A stretch of DNA of 32,424 nucleotides, taken from a virus. The stretch covers positions 1 to 32,424 of the IMG/VR virus record IMGVR_UViG_3300042260_000270. The stretch is one strand, 5' to 3'. Within the stretch, counting starts at the first letter, position 1; each line of letters begins with the position of its first letter. The notes under the pieces are model-generated. The model searched no databases, was not told where the DNA came from, and worked only from the letters and a program-made list of their open reading frames with translations. Below, piece by piece: positions 18,754-32,424 of this stretch. The position numbers and the translations under genes are program-made.

Positions 18754-19938
18754 TTAAACTACAAAAAAATCAGATCGATTTTTGTATTTGGTATAAACAC
18801 CGTAGCGGATCGCATCCATAAGGTGGTTGTGCTTGTCGATTGGCTTGTTTACAATCGTGCCGTCCTTTAATTGTTCCCAAAAATAAAACTGAAATTCGCT
18901 AAATAAATTTGACGATTCTGCTGAGCAAATCACTTCGTGTTCTTTTAGCAAACTGATTCCGGCCTTGATTGATCCCTCTCCTTTGATCGCAGGAATGGCC
19001 AATATATCCATCTGCCTCAACTCCTCAATCGATTTTGGCTCAGCTGATTCACAATAAATGATATGCTCATTGATTTTCTTTTCTTTCAAAAAGTCTGCAA
19101 TGTCCCGGTTGGTCATTCCTTTCTTGTACAGAATTTCGTGAATGAACAATTTATCCCCAACCTTTGCCAACTGAACGATCGCCGTTGGATCGTGACTAAA
19201 TCCAAAGTCAAGGCCGTAAAACACGTCATCAAATTCAGGAAATTCCGCCTTTGGTATAAATTTCCAATTCGGAAATATCTGACGGTCACTAAACACCGCA
19301 CGTTTCCCCTCTCCATACACGCGCCAATAGTCCGGATCCTTTTCACGTAGCCGCTCAATTTCGTGTACCAATTCCGCAGGTAAAAACTTATTGTCTTTGT
19401 AGGTTGAAATCCAACTGTCGCAATCGTCGCGCGTGATCACGTCATCGTAGATCCAATGGACAGGATCAGACGGATTGAAATCGCAAATCATTTCGTCCGT
19501 TGTACGCATTAATAATTGCCTGAAATCCTCATAATCAAGTTCATTGACCTCATTACAGTAACATATATGTCGTTTCCGGCCTCTGATTTTCTGCGGCTCA
19601 TCGACTGAAAGAAATTCCACGACGTGATTGCCGAACGTATAGGTGTTTTCGGATTTGTTATGCTGCCCTATAAACAGGATCCCTAAATTGTCTAGGATTT
19701 CAAGAAAATCGCGTTGTACCGATCCTTTCAAGGCAGGCAATGTTTTCCGGACGATCGAAATAACAAGCGGCTTTTTTGAGGACGTTAATTTGTATATCAG
19801 GTATTGACAAAGGGCATAAGTTTTCCCCGAACGTGTACCGCCCTGATGAACTTTAATACGTTTGTTGCTGTTTAGCGTCTGAAAAAATTGAACGTTGCAT
19901 TGCTGCGCTATTCGTTTTCGATTGTTGCCGGTGTCCAT
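18754..19938 (-). CDS. terL: Terminase large subunit
   Basis: This 394-aa packaging motor and nuclease has a Walker A motif GGTRSGKT at residues 33-40, a Walker B-like acidic residue in YCNEVNE (E130), and the RNase-H-fold nuclease start GLDFGFSHDPTA (D244) with later acidic residues in CESAEPKS and HLMDAIRYG. The sequence resembles PBSX/Terminase_3 enzymes. Its start overlaps the small subunit gene by 31 nt. Confidence 0.95.
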   Translation of the reverse strand: MDTGNNRKRIAQQCNVQFFQTLNSNKRIKVHQGGTRSGKTYALCQYLIYKLTSSKKPLVISIVRKTLPALKGSVQRDFLEILDNLGILFIGQHNKSENTYTFGNHVVEFLSVDEPQKIRGRKRHICYCNEVNELDYEDFRQLLMRTTDEMICDFNPSDPVHWIYDDVITRDDCDSWISTYKDNKFLPAELVHEIERLREKDPDYWRVYGEGKRAVFSDRQIFPNWKFIPKAEFPEFDDVFYGLDFGFSHDPTAIVQLAKVGDKLFIHEILYKKGMTNRDIADFLKEKKINEHIIYCESAEPKSIEELRQMDILAIPAIKGEGSIKAGISLLKEHEVICSAESSNLFSEFQFYFWEQLKDGTIVNKPIDKHNHLMDAIRYGVYTKYKNRSDFFVV

Positions 19939-20273
19939 TCTATTATGGCAGATTCAATGCCGGTTTCGTGTACAACCTCTGTGCGCTCAACGTATCCGCG
20001 TTTTTTGCCTTTGGTCTTTAAATAGAAAATTGTTGCTGTCGTGTTCCCCTCCTTGATCTGCTTATGTAATTGAGATTCGGCAAAGTCAAGCGTCATATCG
20101 GATAATGATTCAACGGCCGTCTTGTACTCAGGATCGTTGCGCAACCAATCATAATGAACCGTACGATCTATACCGGCTGCCTTTGCGGCTGTCGTTACGA
20201 TACCCAACGATTTTTCCAATGCTTCAAGCATCTTCTTTTTGTTCATTTTAGTCACGCGCGCTATGGTTGCCAT
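19908..20273 (-). CDS. terS: Terminase small subunit
   Basis: This 121-aa DNA-binding protein has a helix-turn-helix near its N-terminus (VTTAAKAAGIDRTVHYDWLR), then a helical oligomerisation region (LDFAESQLHKQIKEG) and TIFYLKTKGKKRGY, a pattern common in phage small terminases. It should recognise phage DNA and load it onto the large subunit. It begins one base after the stop of the dioxygenase gene, so packaging and DNA-modification genes are coupled. Confidence 0.88.
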   Translation of the reverse strand: MATIARVTKMNKKKMLEALEKSLGIVTTAAKAAGIDRTVHYDWLRNDPEYKTAVESLSDMTLDFAESQLHKQIKEGNTTATIFYLKTKGKKRGYVERTEVVHETGIESAIIEWTPATIENE

Positions 20274-20274
20274 A

Positions 20275-21054
20275 TTATAGTCCTTTAAATGCTTTCAACG
20301 GATAAAACACAAGGCTGTTTCTGTATCCGCCATCAAATTTCGGAATAATTGGCGTAACTCCGTGCACATTTCTCCACGCAGGATAAACCAACATTGAATT
20401 GTCGCAAGAATCCATCGTTGCGCCGTAATCAGGCACCGTTGTATTGCCTCCGCTTGCGTTTTCTTTTTTTGCAATGATAACATTTACACATCCCTCAAAA
20501 TTACCTGCATCCCGGTGAAACGCCGCAGATATATTGAAATTTGAAATTGAAGATGTAAACAAATTACCAAAACGCCATTTTTTATCAACGTTTGTGCTGA
20601 TAATTTCCAACTGCTTCTCATAAATGTTCGGCGTCAGTTTTTTAATGATCTGCTCACTTTCGTGACAAAGCATCAGCATTGCCTTGATAAATGTATTCGC
20701 TGTTTTGACCTGATGAACGGATGAGATAGACGGGTATGGACGCTTCATATGCGGTCTAGGCGGAACGCTTCCAATAATTGTACTGTATTGCTGTACTGCT
20801 TGCGTATGCCCTAAAATTCCACTTGTTCTACCCATTACGCTTTTAGGAACATTTTTGCTTCTAAACTCGGTGTTTGCGATCGCTACTAATTGCGCGGCTC
20901 TCTCGGAATAATCTGCAATGTTTTTAATGTAAAACCCAATAGGCTCTCCATTTACCAAAAATATCGTGTCCTCAGTGATATTTGGCTCAATATCGCCGCA
21001 AACATCTCCAATTTTTACATCGTGCTTAATTTGAACTAATTCAATTGATCTCAT
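20275..21054 (-). CDS. TET/JBP-family 2-oxoglutarate/Fe(II) DNA base dioxygenase
   Basis: This 259-aa protein carries the complete cupin dioxygenase signature of the TET/JBP family: H180-R-D182 with the nearby N185 (FHRDAGN), a Gly pair at 202-203, distal H231 (NVHGVTPI) and the 2-oxoglutarate-binding R245 (GGYRNSLVFY). The spacing closely follows trypanosome JBP1 (H189, D191, H239, R255). It should hydroxylate the methyl group of thymine, or of 5-methylcytosine, in DNA. No cytosine C5-methyltransferase and no dUMP hydroxymethylase are seen in the genome, so thymine to 5-hydroxymethyluracil is my preferred reaction. It overlaps the kinase gene by 14 nt and precedes the terminase genes. Confidence 0.88.
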   Translation of the reverse strand: MRSIELVQIKHDVKIGDVCGDIEPNITEDTIFLVNGEPIGFYIKNIADYSERAAQLVAIANTEFRSKNVPKSVMGRTSGILGHTQAVQQYSTIIGSVPPRPHMKRPYPSISSVHQVKTANTFIKAMLMLCHESEQIIKKLTPNIYEKQLEIISTNVDKKWRFGNLFTSSISNFNISAAFHRDAGNFEGCVNVIIAKKENASGGNTTVPDYGATMDSCDNSMLVYPAWRNVHGVTPIIPKFDGGYRNSLVFYPLKAFKGL

Positions 21055-21547
21055 TTTCTATTATGTTAAAAAATTCCTGTTTAGTTTGCTTTAAAGGCTG
21101 ATTATTATCAATTATGTACAATTTACGCAACCCGTTTGTTTTGCTTATCATTGAAATGTGGTTTTTCAATTTATTATTGAATGTATCAACATTTATCAGT
21201 TTACCGCGCTCAGCGATGCGTTTTGCGTTATTTTCGAACGTTGTTTTTAAATACACCAAAACAACACTAAAATGCTTATTCAAAATTTCAATATCCTTGA
21301 TTTGGCAATAGTAGTTCCCGGCAATGATAACATTTTTGTCTTTGTTCTCAATTATTGTTTTTAAGACGTTTTCTTTTGCGAATTGAGATAGACTGTCAGC
21401 GCCGTTGATTTGAGTGCCTACCACCCAAACGTTTGGCCTTATTTCCAAAAATATACTTTCCTGCCGCGTTACGGTTTCCTTGATGATAGATGATTTTCCG
21501 CATCCGTAATTTCCTACAAGAAAAAACGCTTTATTTTTTGCACTCAT
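21041..21547 (-). CDS. P-loop kinase, probable 5-hydroxymethyluracil DNA kinase
   Basis: I choose the ATG at 21547 (168 aa, 17-nt overlap with the upstream gene) over 21577. The protein starts MSAKNKAFFLVGNYGCGKSS with a Walker A loop at residues 12-19 and looks like a small nucleotide/nucleoside kinase (NVIIAGNYY beta strand, VLVYLKTTFENNAKRIAERG lid-like region). Small P-loop kinases next to the helical-domain protein encoded upstream are the partners known from phage thymidine hypermodification, where they phosphorylate 5-hydroxymethyluracil in DNA. The general kinase fold is clear; the substrate is inferred from the neighbours. Confidence 0.8.
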   Translation of the reverse strand: MSAKNKAFFLVGNYGCGKSSIIKETVTRQESIFLEIRPNVWVVGTQINGADSLSQFAKENVLKTIIENKDKNVIIAGNYYCQIKDIEILNKHFSVVLVYLKTTFENNAKRIAERGKLINVDTFNNKLKNHISMISKTNGLRKLYIIDNNQPLKQTKQEFFNIIENEIN

Positions 21548-22361
21548 ACAGATATTTCCTTTCAAAAGTTTCTTCACGAAATTGCCATAACACGTTCCAA
21601 TAAACGCCGTTTGTTACCGCCGCTTCCATTTTCTTAATTTCGCCATACATTCGATCAATGTAGTATCCCACATACCGGCTGCCTCTGCGATATTTTTTAT
21701 AAGCACAAAGTGTAGTTTCAATCTGAAATACGTTGCCATCATATTTCCGTAAAAAATCAATAAATGAATTGTGTAACAAAATGGCGTCATTCTTTGTAAT
21801 TTTCTTGTCCACTAGATCGATCCGATCGATGGCGTATGCCAACCCGTTCCTGCAAGATTCCGCTTCAAGCATATTCAGGTAGGTAGGTTTGTGATTAATG
21901 TCTGTAATGTTATTTAACACGTCAAGGTAGTTAAATAGGCTGAATCGGCCGAAATACTTGATGGCCTCCATTTTCTTGTACATTTCCTGCCAATTCTTTG
22001 ATCGAAAATAGTTTTGCTGACTATTCTTGACAAGCGCTTTATAAGACTTGAAACAATCAACGAATTGATTGTTAGATTTGATCCTTTGGCGATCGGTTTG
22101 AAAAATACAATTATCTTTTTTAGCGTTCCACCAATTTGTAAGCCTATTCACGTCAACGCATTCAAAATCCGGAAATTCGTTGTAGATGTAGAACACTGTT
22201 GGCGCGCAGTAACAAGTTCCGTATAAAAACGCGATCCAATAACGCTGCTCAATGTTCAACTCAAACCTGTCCGAAAGGTATTTTAAGCAAGTTATTGAGG
22301 GATCAATATCTTTTGCTTCAAGGCTCATCCGGTGATATGTAGCATAATCGATGTGTGACAT
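21531..22361 (-). CDS. 5-hmdU DNA kinase helical domain / aGPT-pyrophosphorylase clade 2-like protein
   Basis: This 276-aa, mostly helical protein has motifs I associate with the HMUDK_hel/aGPT-Pplase2 family: DRFELNIEQRYWIAFLYG (31-48), NEFPDFECVD (61-70) with WW at 77-78, IFQTDRQRIK (86-95), YFGRFSLFNYLD (136-147), ESCRNGLAYA (168-177), LCAYKKYRRGSRYVGYYIDR (218-237) and YWNVLWQFREE (254-264). In thymidine-hypermodifying phages this domain works with a P-loop kinase acting on 5-hydroxymethyluracil in DNA. It is translationally coupled (TAATG) to the glutaminase gene upstream and overlaps the kinase gene downstream. Recognition is from memory of the family pattern. Confidence 0.78.
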   Translation of the reverse strand: MSHIDYATYHRMSLEAKDIDPSITCLKYLSDRFELNIEQRYWIAFLYGTCYCAPTVFYIYNEFPDFECVDVNRLTNWWNAKKDNCIFQTDRQRIKSNNQFVDCFKSYKALVKNSQQNYFRSKNWQEMYKKMEAIKYFGRFSLFNYLDVLNNITDINHKPTYLNMLEAESCRNGLAYAIDRIDLVDKKITKNDAILLHNSFIDFLRKYDGNVFQIETTLCAYKKYRRGSRYVGYYIDRMYGEIKKMEAAVTNGVYWNVLWQFREETFERKYLYECKK

Positions 22362-22954
22362 TAAAATGCTATTTTTTTTAGATTTGGTAATTCAACCGCA
22401 AAATCGATCCCTGAGCGCTTCATAATATCATTCGTGCTTGCTATTATTACATCTCCATCCTTTTCGGCAATATACAGTGGCCGCTTTGAGTTTTTCATTG
22501 CTACCAATTTACCGCCTGATAAACCAACCATTGCAAACGTGATTGATTTGCTAGATAAAAACGCAGGATCGTCCATCTTGTGTAGCAATAAATAGCCGTC
22601 ATTATCTCCTTGAAGCAACATATTGTATTCCTGTTCCATTTCGGCCTTTGTTTTCTGAGATATAACGCCGTTGAAAGCAATCGATGTTTTGCCGTCTGAT
22701 AACGGTTGATTGTTGTCAAGTTCCCTATAATCGCCTGACGTGCTGTACCTAAAATGGGCAATAAATTTGTTAGGCGCTTTTTGGTGTAATGCCAAAACGA
22801 ATTGATCATAGTCAAGAAATTTGTTTGTCACTAGCTTCCCGGCTTCATAACAGGAGAATCCGAAACTGTGGATCCCCCTGATTTTGCTATTCTCAAAGAC
22901 TTTCGTCAATAGATCGCGATCGTAAACACCCGAAAAACCAATGATTGAACACAT
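22361..22954 (-). CDS. Class II glutamine amidotransferase (Ntn hydrolase), stand-alone
   Basis: This 197-aa protein begins Met-Cys, so Cys2 becomes the N-terminal nucleophile after Met removal. It continues with the class II signatures: R26-G-x-H-S-x-G, H67-F-R-Y-S-T-S-G74, N82-Q-P, and F94-N-G96. The family hydrolyses glutamine to release ammonia for a partner synthase; here no synthase domain is fused. Coupling by TAATG overlap to ParB upstream and to the helical hmdU protein downstream suggests it feeds ammonia, or handles an amino acid, in the base modification. Gln hydrolysis is confident; the acceptor is not known. Confidence 0.88.
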   Translation of the reverse strand: MCSIIGFSGVYDRDLLTKVFENSKIRGIHSFGFSCYEAGKLVTNKFLDYDQFVLALHQKAPNKFIAHFRYSTSGDYRELDNNQPLSDGKTSIAFNGVISQKTKAEMEQEYNMLLQGDNDGYLLLHKMDDPAFLSSKSITFAMVGLSGGKLVAMKNSKRPLYIAEKDGDVIIASTNDIMKRSGIDFAVELPNLKKIAF

Positions 22955-23526
22955 TATTTCAATTTCTCTTCTTTCAATTTCTCAATCAAGAATCCGCCAA
23001 TGTACAATTCGCGGCCTCTCCAAAATTTAACCAATTCTTGCGCCTCCTCATAATGCTCAGGCTCAAACTCAATTTGGATTGCCTTGCGTACACCTCCGGC
23101 CATATCGCCTAGCTGATCTGTTAGATCCTCAGAATCAAGAATTGAATAATCAGGCTCGTCATTGTTTTGCCAAACGTCAAGTCCCCAATCTGCTAATAAT
23201 TCAGCATCCCATTCATTCGCAAGCGCATCCCAATCCCATTCTCCAAACCCTACGTTGTCCTTGATTATAAACTCTTTTTGCTGTTCAGGCGTCAGGTTCC
23301 CGGCCTTAATGATCGGAACTTTTTTCAATCCGGCTTCTTGACACGCTCTCAATCTCATATTGCCGCCTAATACAACCATAAATTCGTCCACGATAATAGG
23401 ACGCAATTCAAGCATTTCAGGAAAATCTTTGATTGACTTTACAAGTCTTTTAAATTTGTCATCCTTGATCAATCTAGGGTTATTTGGATGAGGAATAACC
23501 AATTTGATGTTTACGTGCTCTATCAT
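22954..23526 (-). CDS. ParB-like N-terminal domain protein
   Basis: This 190-aa protein has the ParB/Srx-fold pattern: VIPHPNNPR (10-18), LRPIIVDEFMVVLGGNMRLR (41-60, with the GG-N-x-R motif), ACQEAGLKKVPI and then IIKDNVGFGEWDWDAL. The C-terminus (FEPEHYEEAQELVKFW) is a helical region seen in phage ParB-like nucleases. Such domains bind or hydrolyse nucleotides or nick DNA. Coupled translation with the glutaminase gene places it in the base-modification cassette, where ParB-like genes recur in phages. Its exact step is unknown. Confidence 0.85.
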   Translation of the reverse strand: MIEHVNIKLVIPHPNNPRLIKDDKFKRLVKSIKDFPEMLELRPIIVDEFMVVLGGNMRLRACQEAGLKKVPIIKAGNLTPEQQKEFIIKDNVGFGEWDWDALANEWDAELLADWGLDVWQNNDEPDYSILDSEDLTDQLGDMAGGVRKAIQIEFEPEHYEEAQELVKFWRGRELYIGGFLIEKLKEEKLK

Positions 23527-31495: not shown

Positions 31496-32424
31496 TTACT
31501 CTTGATATGAAACTCTGTACGTTGTAGCCACGTCCGTGTAATTATTCGGAATATGGAATTGACAGCTGTAAACGTTTGATTTCATCTGCAACCGGATCGA
31601 ATCGACAATGGCCGAATCTGTTTCAGTTAATGTATTGAATTTGATCCATAATTTATGAGCCATCGTCATTACGCCGAATTGATCCATATTGTATAAATCG
31701 CCCTCATATTGCATTGAGTATTGTCTGAAATCATTTATCCTTTGCTGCGTCACGATCTGCTCCAAAAATAAGCCGTTTGCGTCCTGAGCGCGCTTGAAAG
31801 TATTGTTATCTGTAAATGCTCCTAAAAATACAACAGAATCCACGTCAGTTTGATAGATTTCCTTGTGTTCCATAACATCCGATGTTATAAATGATCCGGA
31901 TTGCTCCCGAATGAAATAAACCTCCTTGTACACGTTTTGCTCTTTGTCGATATTACGCACAGCGCAGTTATCCAAATACATTCCTGTATATAAACCCGGA
32001 GAATCAATGTAAGGATATGAGAATCCAATCTGCATCTGTCCGGGTTCAGGCGCTTCTTTTGCTGTAAATTTGAATGATTCAAACGTTCCTGCTCCAACAA
32101 CGGCTGTTTCATTCCAAATTACTGACGCAGACGTTCCCCAAGTTTTGTTCACTTCGCTCCAATAATAATAGGCGCCCGGTGAATACTCGATTCTCAAAAA
32201 CCAAGGCAACCGGTTATCAGATCCGCCCTTGTCGATATTGACCGAAAACAAAACCTGATATTGATTGCCTTTAATAGCGTTTGCGGATCCTGCGCTGACT
32301 AATCTAATTGTATAAACGCCTAATGCGCTTGTACCTACATATTTCAGCGATCTACGGCCTGCGAATGGAGCATTGACAAATTCTGTTGTTACCAATGTCG
32401 TTGTCCAATTTTCATAGTCAAATT
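31496..32424 (-). CDS. Distal tail / baseplate protein, C-terminal part (joins 1-1143)
   Basis: The frame is open from the right edge to a stop at 31496. Bases 32279-32424 duplicate 1-146, so the non-redundant part is 31496-32278 (260 codons). The first part completes a jelly-roll resembling carbohydrate-binding modules (FSVNIDKGGSDNRLPWFLRI, then AKEAPEPGQMQIGFSYPYID and GMYLDNCAVRNI). The last 130 residues are a separate beta-rich domain (SDVMEHKEIYQTD, DFRQYSMQYEGDLYNMDQFG). The residue equal to Cys339 in the other copy is Trp here, the residue expected in the F-E-x-W motif of such modules. It is the last late gene before the terminator. Confidence 0.75.
   Translation of the reverse strand, partial: FDYENWTTTLVTTEFVNAPFAGRRSLKYVGTSALGVYTIRLVSAGSANAIKGNQYQVLFSVNIDKGGSDNRLPWFLRIEYSPGAYYYWSEVNKTWGTSASVIWNETAVVGAGTFESFKFTAKEAPEPGQMQIGFSYPYIDSPGLYTGMYLDNCAVRNIDKEQNVYKEVYFIREQSGSFITSDVMEHKEIYQTDVDSVVFLGAFTDNNTFKRAQDANGLFLEQIVTQQRINDFRQYSMQYEGDLYNMDQFGVMTMAHKLWIKFNTLTETDSAIVDSIRLQMKSNVYSCQFHIPNNYTDVATTYRVSYQE

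Follow-up and report, generated by a model that had tools for sequence, protein, structure and literature searches.

What a glutaminase is doing among predicted DNA-modification genes is the question raised by the window, by which we mean the whole 32,424-base IMG/VR virus record IMGVR_UViG_3300042260_000270. Its minus strand encodes, in this order, a ParB-domain protein, a stand-alone glutamine amidotransferase (GAT), a member of the amino acid:DNA transferase family (ADDT), a P-loop kinase and a TET/JBP dioxygenase (TET), followed by the small (TerS) and large (TerL) terminase subunits. We are fairly confident that the cassette, read as a whole, carries out post-replicative hypermodification of thymine. 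A fuller proposal, to which we give slightly less than even weight, makes GAT and ADDT the two subunits of one DNA amidotransferase, which would aminate a base in double-stranded DNA with glutamine-derived ammonia, yielding 5-aminomethyl-deoxyuridine (5-aminomethyl-dU) directly. The pair would be an exchangeable module acting downstream of 5-hydroxymethyluracil (5hmU) made by TET or by a thymidylate synthase, and one of several chemistries swapped through the ParB-TET-terminase locus. Families, catalytic residues, folds, linkage, co-evolution and missing alternatives are the basis of this pathway, and from them we infer the chemistry.

GAT and ADDT occur as an obligate pair

Relatives were gathered by similarity to the window TET and the window ADDT. 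Of 74 distinct ADDT genes, 70 have a GAT immediately upstream or at a distance of one gene. Among the four that do not, tblastn recovered a GAT for two, and the remaining two belong to the reference phages ViI and Tonitrus. All 72 environmental or genome-contig ADDT loci have a GAT, and in the reverse direction ADDT adjoins every testable GAT gene (52/52). Among the cultured phages examined, none has a GAT beside an ADDT. The GAT search there returned a single weak match, in an amidoligase/ATP-grasp-like neighbourhood of Vibrio phage Ph19S9E2, which we consider a different system because ADDT is absent from that neighbourhood. The plasmids searched held no ADDT relatives.

The pairwise distances of GAT and ADDT are correlated at 0.89, and at 0.81 in a partial correlation given TET and ParB (n=56), whereas the partial correlation of TET with ADDT falls to 0.08 (n=56). 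These values, together with the tree, indicate that GAT and ADDT are inherited together as a single unit, which moves from one TET or kinase to another. We regard GAT as very probably a functional partner of ADDT, and the fact that the two form an obligate pair suggests ammonia as the nucleophile.

The GAT sequence fits such a role. Its catalytic set, comprising the N-terminal Cys nucleophile C2, R69, the oxyanion-hole residues N95-G96 and D119, is invariant in 13 sequences. Its best NCBIfam match is PurF (E=4.6e-7), and its structural model, with a predicted local distance difference test score (pLDDT) of 94, matches the EgtC, GlmS and PurF glutaminases in fold. PurF and GlmS have the class II glutaminase fold and catalytic residues in common with GAT; unlike them, GAT is a separate protein and its proposed acceptor is a base in DNA. 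In the PurF reaction, ammonia replaces pyrophosphate. The predicted role of GAT is most likely that of an ammonia source for ADDT.

The earlier note on this DNA had read the helical protein downstream of GAT as HMUDK/aGPT-pyrophosphorylase-like. This assignment did not hold: HMUDK_hel (PF18723) gave no match up to E=1, while the protein scored well over the curated cut-off of the ADDT family PF18724 (67.3 vs 26.2 bits). The other Pfam families that had been expected, Tet_JBP, class II GATase and ParB, were all recovered. The ADDT family is not unrelated to the proposed chemistry, as it includes gp46 of Pseudomonas phage PaMx11, which is a characterised 5-phosphomethyl-dU glycinyltransferase. 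The ADDT model (pLDDT 94) has this enzyme as its best Protein Data Bank (PDB) fold match (8z2n/8z2m, probability 1.00, template modelling (TM) score 0.61-0.65), and gp46 itself matches Pfam ADDT with E=1.6e-27. FG(R) and ET.LC..K are conserved motifs of ADDT, and DxDP, FG and ET.LC..K are shared with gp46. Sequence searches of the PDB with GAT, ADDT or TET found no relatives, and a profile search with ADDT gave chance matches only, so that the fold search was the informative one. Judged from sequence and model, ADDT is highly likely to displace phosphate from 5-phosphomethyl-dU in DNA.

In two related loci (L009, 2075-3100, and L122) ADDT carries an N-terminal extension of 65-70 residues. The extension in L009 resembles the start of the GNAT of sister cassettes, which would fit the decay of a GNAT gene into ADDT.

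Thymine is the probable substrate of TET

The last gene of the cassette scores over the curated PF12851 Tet_JBP cut-off (46.3 vs 34.9 bits) and thus does not belong to an unrelated family. The iron triad and the Arg that binds 2-oxoglutarate (2OG) are kept (H180xD182, H231 and R245, invariant in 14 sequences). TET is predicted to be a thymine 5-methyl hydroxylase.

The earlier note had named thymine or 5-methylcytosine as possible targets, and it is gene context that favours the former. No cytosine C5-methyltransferase was found in the window or in the records of any of the 13 GAT-ADDT relatives searched. Thymidylate synthase and PolA polymerase are absent from the window, and neither was found in the 22 records searched. 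In a more distant locus, L091, GAT-ADDT is flanked by a Pfam 5-hmdU DNA kinase 2 on one side and an amidoligase-like gene on the other, and both HMUDK_hel and a thymidylate synthase are encoded nearby. By our reading of an alignment with the PaMx11 enzyme, this synthase has Asn at the substrate-determining position, which marks the dUMP type (PMC8670742). Since the 5-hmdU kinase lies beside it and HMUDK_hel and the Asn-type synthase are near, the GAT-ADDT module appears to belong with 5hmU and not with 5-hydroxymethylcytosine. The missing enzymes and the L091 context together make us confident that thymine is the TET substrate, with 5hmU arising after replication.

The TET family is labelled 'queuine tRNA-ribosyltransferase' in several RefSeq phage records, including NC_020847.1, NC_020857.1 and mycobacteriophages, and in PHROG 6059, although it matches Tet_JBP instead. 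The cultured flavophage Nonlabens phage P12024L (L176, 4004-6269) encodes a TET followed by a glycosyltransferase and then a methyltransferase. This TET is 45% identical to a second TET subfamily described below, and the phage is a tractable virus for work on TET substrates.

The kinase has the Walker A motif GNYGCGKS and a G-x-D-x-L-S motif, and its Pfam matches are sub-threshold P-loop/AAA families only. It is profile-related to two kinases of sister cassettes, KINb and KINc. By hhalign it matches KINb at 95.9%, and KINb in turn matches the kinases of phages Hydro and Tonitrus at 97.6-98.7%. We predict with good confidence that it is a 5hmU-DNA kinase. ParB is possibly a DNA-targeting or accessory factor. 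For 112 of 118 distinct TETs, a ParB gene stands no more than five genes upstream.

A proposed pathway and its rivals

The five proteins can be placed in one pathway. TET would hydroxylate the thymine methyl group in replicated phage DNA to give 5-hydroxymethyl-U, as we infer from its family, its intact active site and the lack of another hydroxymethylpyrimidine source. The P-loop kinase would phosphorylate the hydroxymethyl group to give 5-phosphomethyl-dU; in phiW-14 the intermediate is a pyrophosphoryl form (PMC5977210). ADDT would bind the 5-(pyro)phosphomethyl-dU in DNA, where the phosphate would be displaced by a nitrogen nucleophile. GAT would hydrolyse glutamine and hand the ammonia to ADDT, producing 5-aminomethyl-dU in one step by an amination chemically like the exchange catalysed by PurF. 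In relatives that have a GNAT, the resulting amine would be acylated. ParB may bring the enzymes to the DNA, by loading or targeting, ahead of packaging; this is the weakest part of the scheme. Oxidation to 5hmU, kinase activation and substitution by a nitrogen nucleophile had all been suggested in the earlier note, and family, motif and context evidence supports each of them. For ammonia as the nucleophile and 5-aminomethyl-dU as the product, we judge the balance to be about even. The base itself is already listed as natural in phages (PMC11550810).

Several points weigh against this scheme. The kinase has no curated 5hmU-kinase match and is tied to known ones only via sister families. No natural GAT-ADDT fusion was found among the 74 distinct ADDTs. 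In many relatives the GNATs between GAT and ADDT match PaMx11 gp48, which adjoins the PaMx11 ADDT (the window has no GNAT); this match speaks for the scheme, but weakly, because GNATs are a broad superfamily. To our knowledge, the characterised ADDT-family members use amino acids and not ammonia. Transfer of a whole amino acid is accordingly the main rival: ADDT would join phosphomethyl-dU to glycine, serine, glutamate or glutamine, in the manner of PaMx11 or ViI, while GAT would supply glutamate locally or amidate the attached acid, and the product would be an amino-acyl thymine, for example N-alpha-glycyl- or glutamyl/glutaminyl-thymine. The known transferases speak for it (gp46 is named a glycinyltransferase and ViI carries an ADDT), as do two more distant GAT-ADDT loci in which an amidoligase (L090, by Pfam) or an amidoligase-like gene (L091, by motif only) stands next to ADDT. 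However, the window and most of its close relatives have no amidoligase, the cassette contains no decarboxylase, flavin adenine dinucleotide (FAD) oxidase or radical S-adenosylmethionine (SAM) gene, and no gp47-like FAD oxidase was found in any locus tested. Free amino acids, moreover, could be used without a dedicated glutaminase, and yet no loss of GAT is seen. We consider this rival unlikely, though less so than those that follow.

Another view of GAT is suggested by its fold, since its closest PDB match by E-value is EgtC, which is an amidohydrolase and not an amidotransferase and which GAT also resembles in being a stand-alone domain. An EgtC-like N-terminal nucleophile (Ntn) amidohydrolase could trim a gamma-glutamyl or other amide from a conjugate installed by ADDT. 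By TM-score, however, GlmS glutaminase is closer (up to 0.77, against ~0.68 for EgtC), PurF is the best sequence model, and no gene for synthesis of a gamma-glutamyl donor was recognised in the cassette, so we think this role improbable. Somewhat less probable again is that TET acts on 5-methylcytosine and that the cassette modifies cytosine. Some phage TETs have been reported as active on 5-methylcytosine (Burke 2021, as cited in PMC11404850), and two TET relatives encode a C5-methyltransferase, but these two have no GAT-ADDT, and both the absence of such an enzyme from the GAT-ADDT records and the neighbours of GAT-ADDT in L091 speak for thymine. That the cassette modifies something other than virion DNA, such as host DNA or RNA, or that its genes do not form one pathway, is very improbable in view of the overlapping genes, their co-inheritance and the conserved place between ParB and terminase genes, a recognised terminase gene lying within 4 kb of 45 of the 52 testable TETs.

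The ParB-TET locus has an exchangeable slot

The relatives repeat one frame, ParB-[slot]-TET-TerS-TerL. Counted by distinct TETs, the slot is empty in 22 cases, holds an FkbM methyltransferase in 20 and a TET-associated or other glycosyltransferase in 11, numbers that reflect similarity-ranked searches and should not be read as frequencies. The remaining type is GAT-ADDT with one of three kinases and sometimes a GNAT. In some phages the GAT-ADDT-kinase set follows the second TET subfamily, which is 23-24% identical to the window TET. The earlier note had called the cassette unusually minimal, a description that fails because the same GAT-ADDT-kinase-TET cassette occurs in dozens of distinct environmental phage versions. 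The glutamine-fed version is common in uncultured phages.

The FkbM-type loci (L001, 5261-5962; L014, L016, L020, L022 and others) include the cultured Prochlorococcus phage P-HS2, and the genes recur as ParB-TET-FkbM in Pelagibacter phage HTVC112P. With this occupant, the TET product may be O-methylated or altered in a related way. The third slot type is a GT-B glycosyltransferase-like protein of ~300 amino acids (aa) without a Pfam match (L036, 922-1842; L079, 4158-5063). In L090 (5327-7933; PF12224) and L091 (4548-9307) the GAT-ADDT pair is followed by the amidoligase or amidoligase-like gene, an arrangement that suggests a peptide-like extension of the base. Contigs of metagenome-assembled genomes of gut Bacteroidota (L168, 5505-11156, and L170; Phocaeicola, Prevotella) have ParB-GAT-ADDT with a radical SAM-like protein downstream. 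In L168 this protein has a Pfam match, and the locus is preceded closely by an S-adenosylmethionine synthetase; in neither contig was a TET like that of the window recognised.

Comparison with known systems

In PaMx11, gp46-gp49 are described as a 5-phosphomethyl-dU (5-PmdU) glycinyltransferase, an FAD oxidase, an acetyltransferase and a kinase (Wen et al. 2024, as cited in PMC11946847). The likeness to the window lies in the family and fold of ADDT and in the P-loop kinase, and many window relatives also have a GNAT next to ADDT. The two differ in their source of 5hmU, which is a thymidylate-synthase homologue in PaMx11 and TET in the window, and the PaMx11 oxidase stands where the window system, which has no oxidase, has GAT. 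That oxidase, gp47, reportedly converts the glycine adduct to 5-aminomethyl-dU.

Mycobacteriophage Hydro (Coopervirus) and Rhodococcus phage Tonitrus, like the window, have ParB, TET, an ADDT-family protein and a P-loop kinase near the terminase, and the Tonitrus cluster was called a five-gene thymidine hypermodification system by its authors (PMC11955845). Unlike the window they have no GAT, and their ADDT and TET are ~17-27% identical to those of the window. Salmonella phage ViI, which contains 5-(2-aminoethoxy)methyl-dU, encodes an ADDT (E=3e-58) close to a 5-hmdU DNA kinase 2 (HMUD2), but this ADDT has no neighbouring GAT, the stretch examined contains no TET, and the thymine of this phage is replaced during replication via 5hmdUTP. 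In P-HS2 and cyanophage MED4-117 the TET is 53% identical to that of the window and the order is ParB-X-TET-small gene-TerL, with the FkbM methyltransferase in place of GAT-ADDT-kinase.

ParB-TET-ADDT-kinase clusters near the terminase are thus already known in actinobacteriophages. What is new, as far as the searchable literature shows and with an earlier mention possible, is that ADDT has an obligate partner in the glutaminase, that this partner is widespread in uncultured phages and that one locus exchanges it with other chemistries. If the proposal is right, phages possess a pair of enzymes that uses glutamine to aminate bases in DNA. This route to aminomethyl-uracil DNA would differ from the glycine route proposed for PaMx11, and the pair would offer an enzymatic means of placing amines in DNA. 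The proposal would also give a likely substrate, thymine, for the TETs of a large uncultured phage set, and would make the step after TET exchangeable between methyltransferase, glycosyltransferase and amination with optional acylation. The pathway could be reconstituted directly, because its five genes total 3.3 kb.

Gene layout and genome

The features of the cassette and the terminase genes that follow it are collected in Table 1.

Table 1 Cassette and terminase genes of the window
Feature	Position	Strand	Evidence
ParB_N-domain protein, 190 aa, first cassette gene	22954..23526	-	Pfam ParB_N E=4.8e-7
GAT, stand-alone class II (Ntn) glutamine amidotransferase, 197 aa	22361..22954	-	Pfam GATase_6 E=3.6e-6
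ADDT, amino acid:DNA transferase family, 276 aa	21531..22361	-	Pfam ADDT E=2.1e-18
P-loop kinase, 178 aa from GTG 21577 or 168 aa from ATG 21547	21041..21577	-	Walker A motif
TET/JBP 2OG-Fe(II) dioxygenase, 259 aa	20275..21054	-	Pfam Tet_JBP E=3.4e-12
TerS, terminase small subunit	19908..20273	-	PHROG terminase small subunit E=8e-10
TerL, terminase large subunit	18754..19938	-	Pfam Terminase_3 E=6.5e-26; NCBIfam phage_term_2 E=1.1e-42

The ParB/GAT and GAT/ADDT junctions are 1-nt TAATG overlaps, kinase and TET overlap by 14 nt, and TerS starts one base downstream of TET. Five tightly joined genes with terS one base away were therefore found just as the earlier note had them, and the direct succession of TerS and TerL supports its coupling of the cassette to the packaging genes. 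Its upper limit of 17 nt for the overlaps is correct if the kinase starts at the ATG; with the GTG start, ADDT and kinase overlap by 47 nt. Rfam and tRNA scans of the window gave no matches, and PADLOC found no defence families there apart from a ParB/MTase N-terminal match for ParB.

The ends of the window carry a direct terminal repeat of 146 bp with one mismatch (1-146 and 32279-32424), and L005, the contig of a close relative, is a circular permutation of the window by alignment; the genome is therefore very likely complete at ~32.3 kb. The portal protein is nearest to those of Cellulophaga phages, which suggests a Bacteroidota host.

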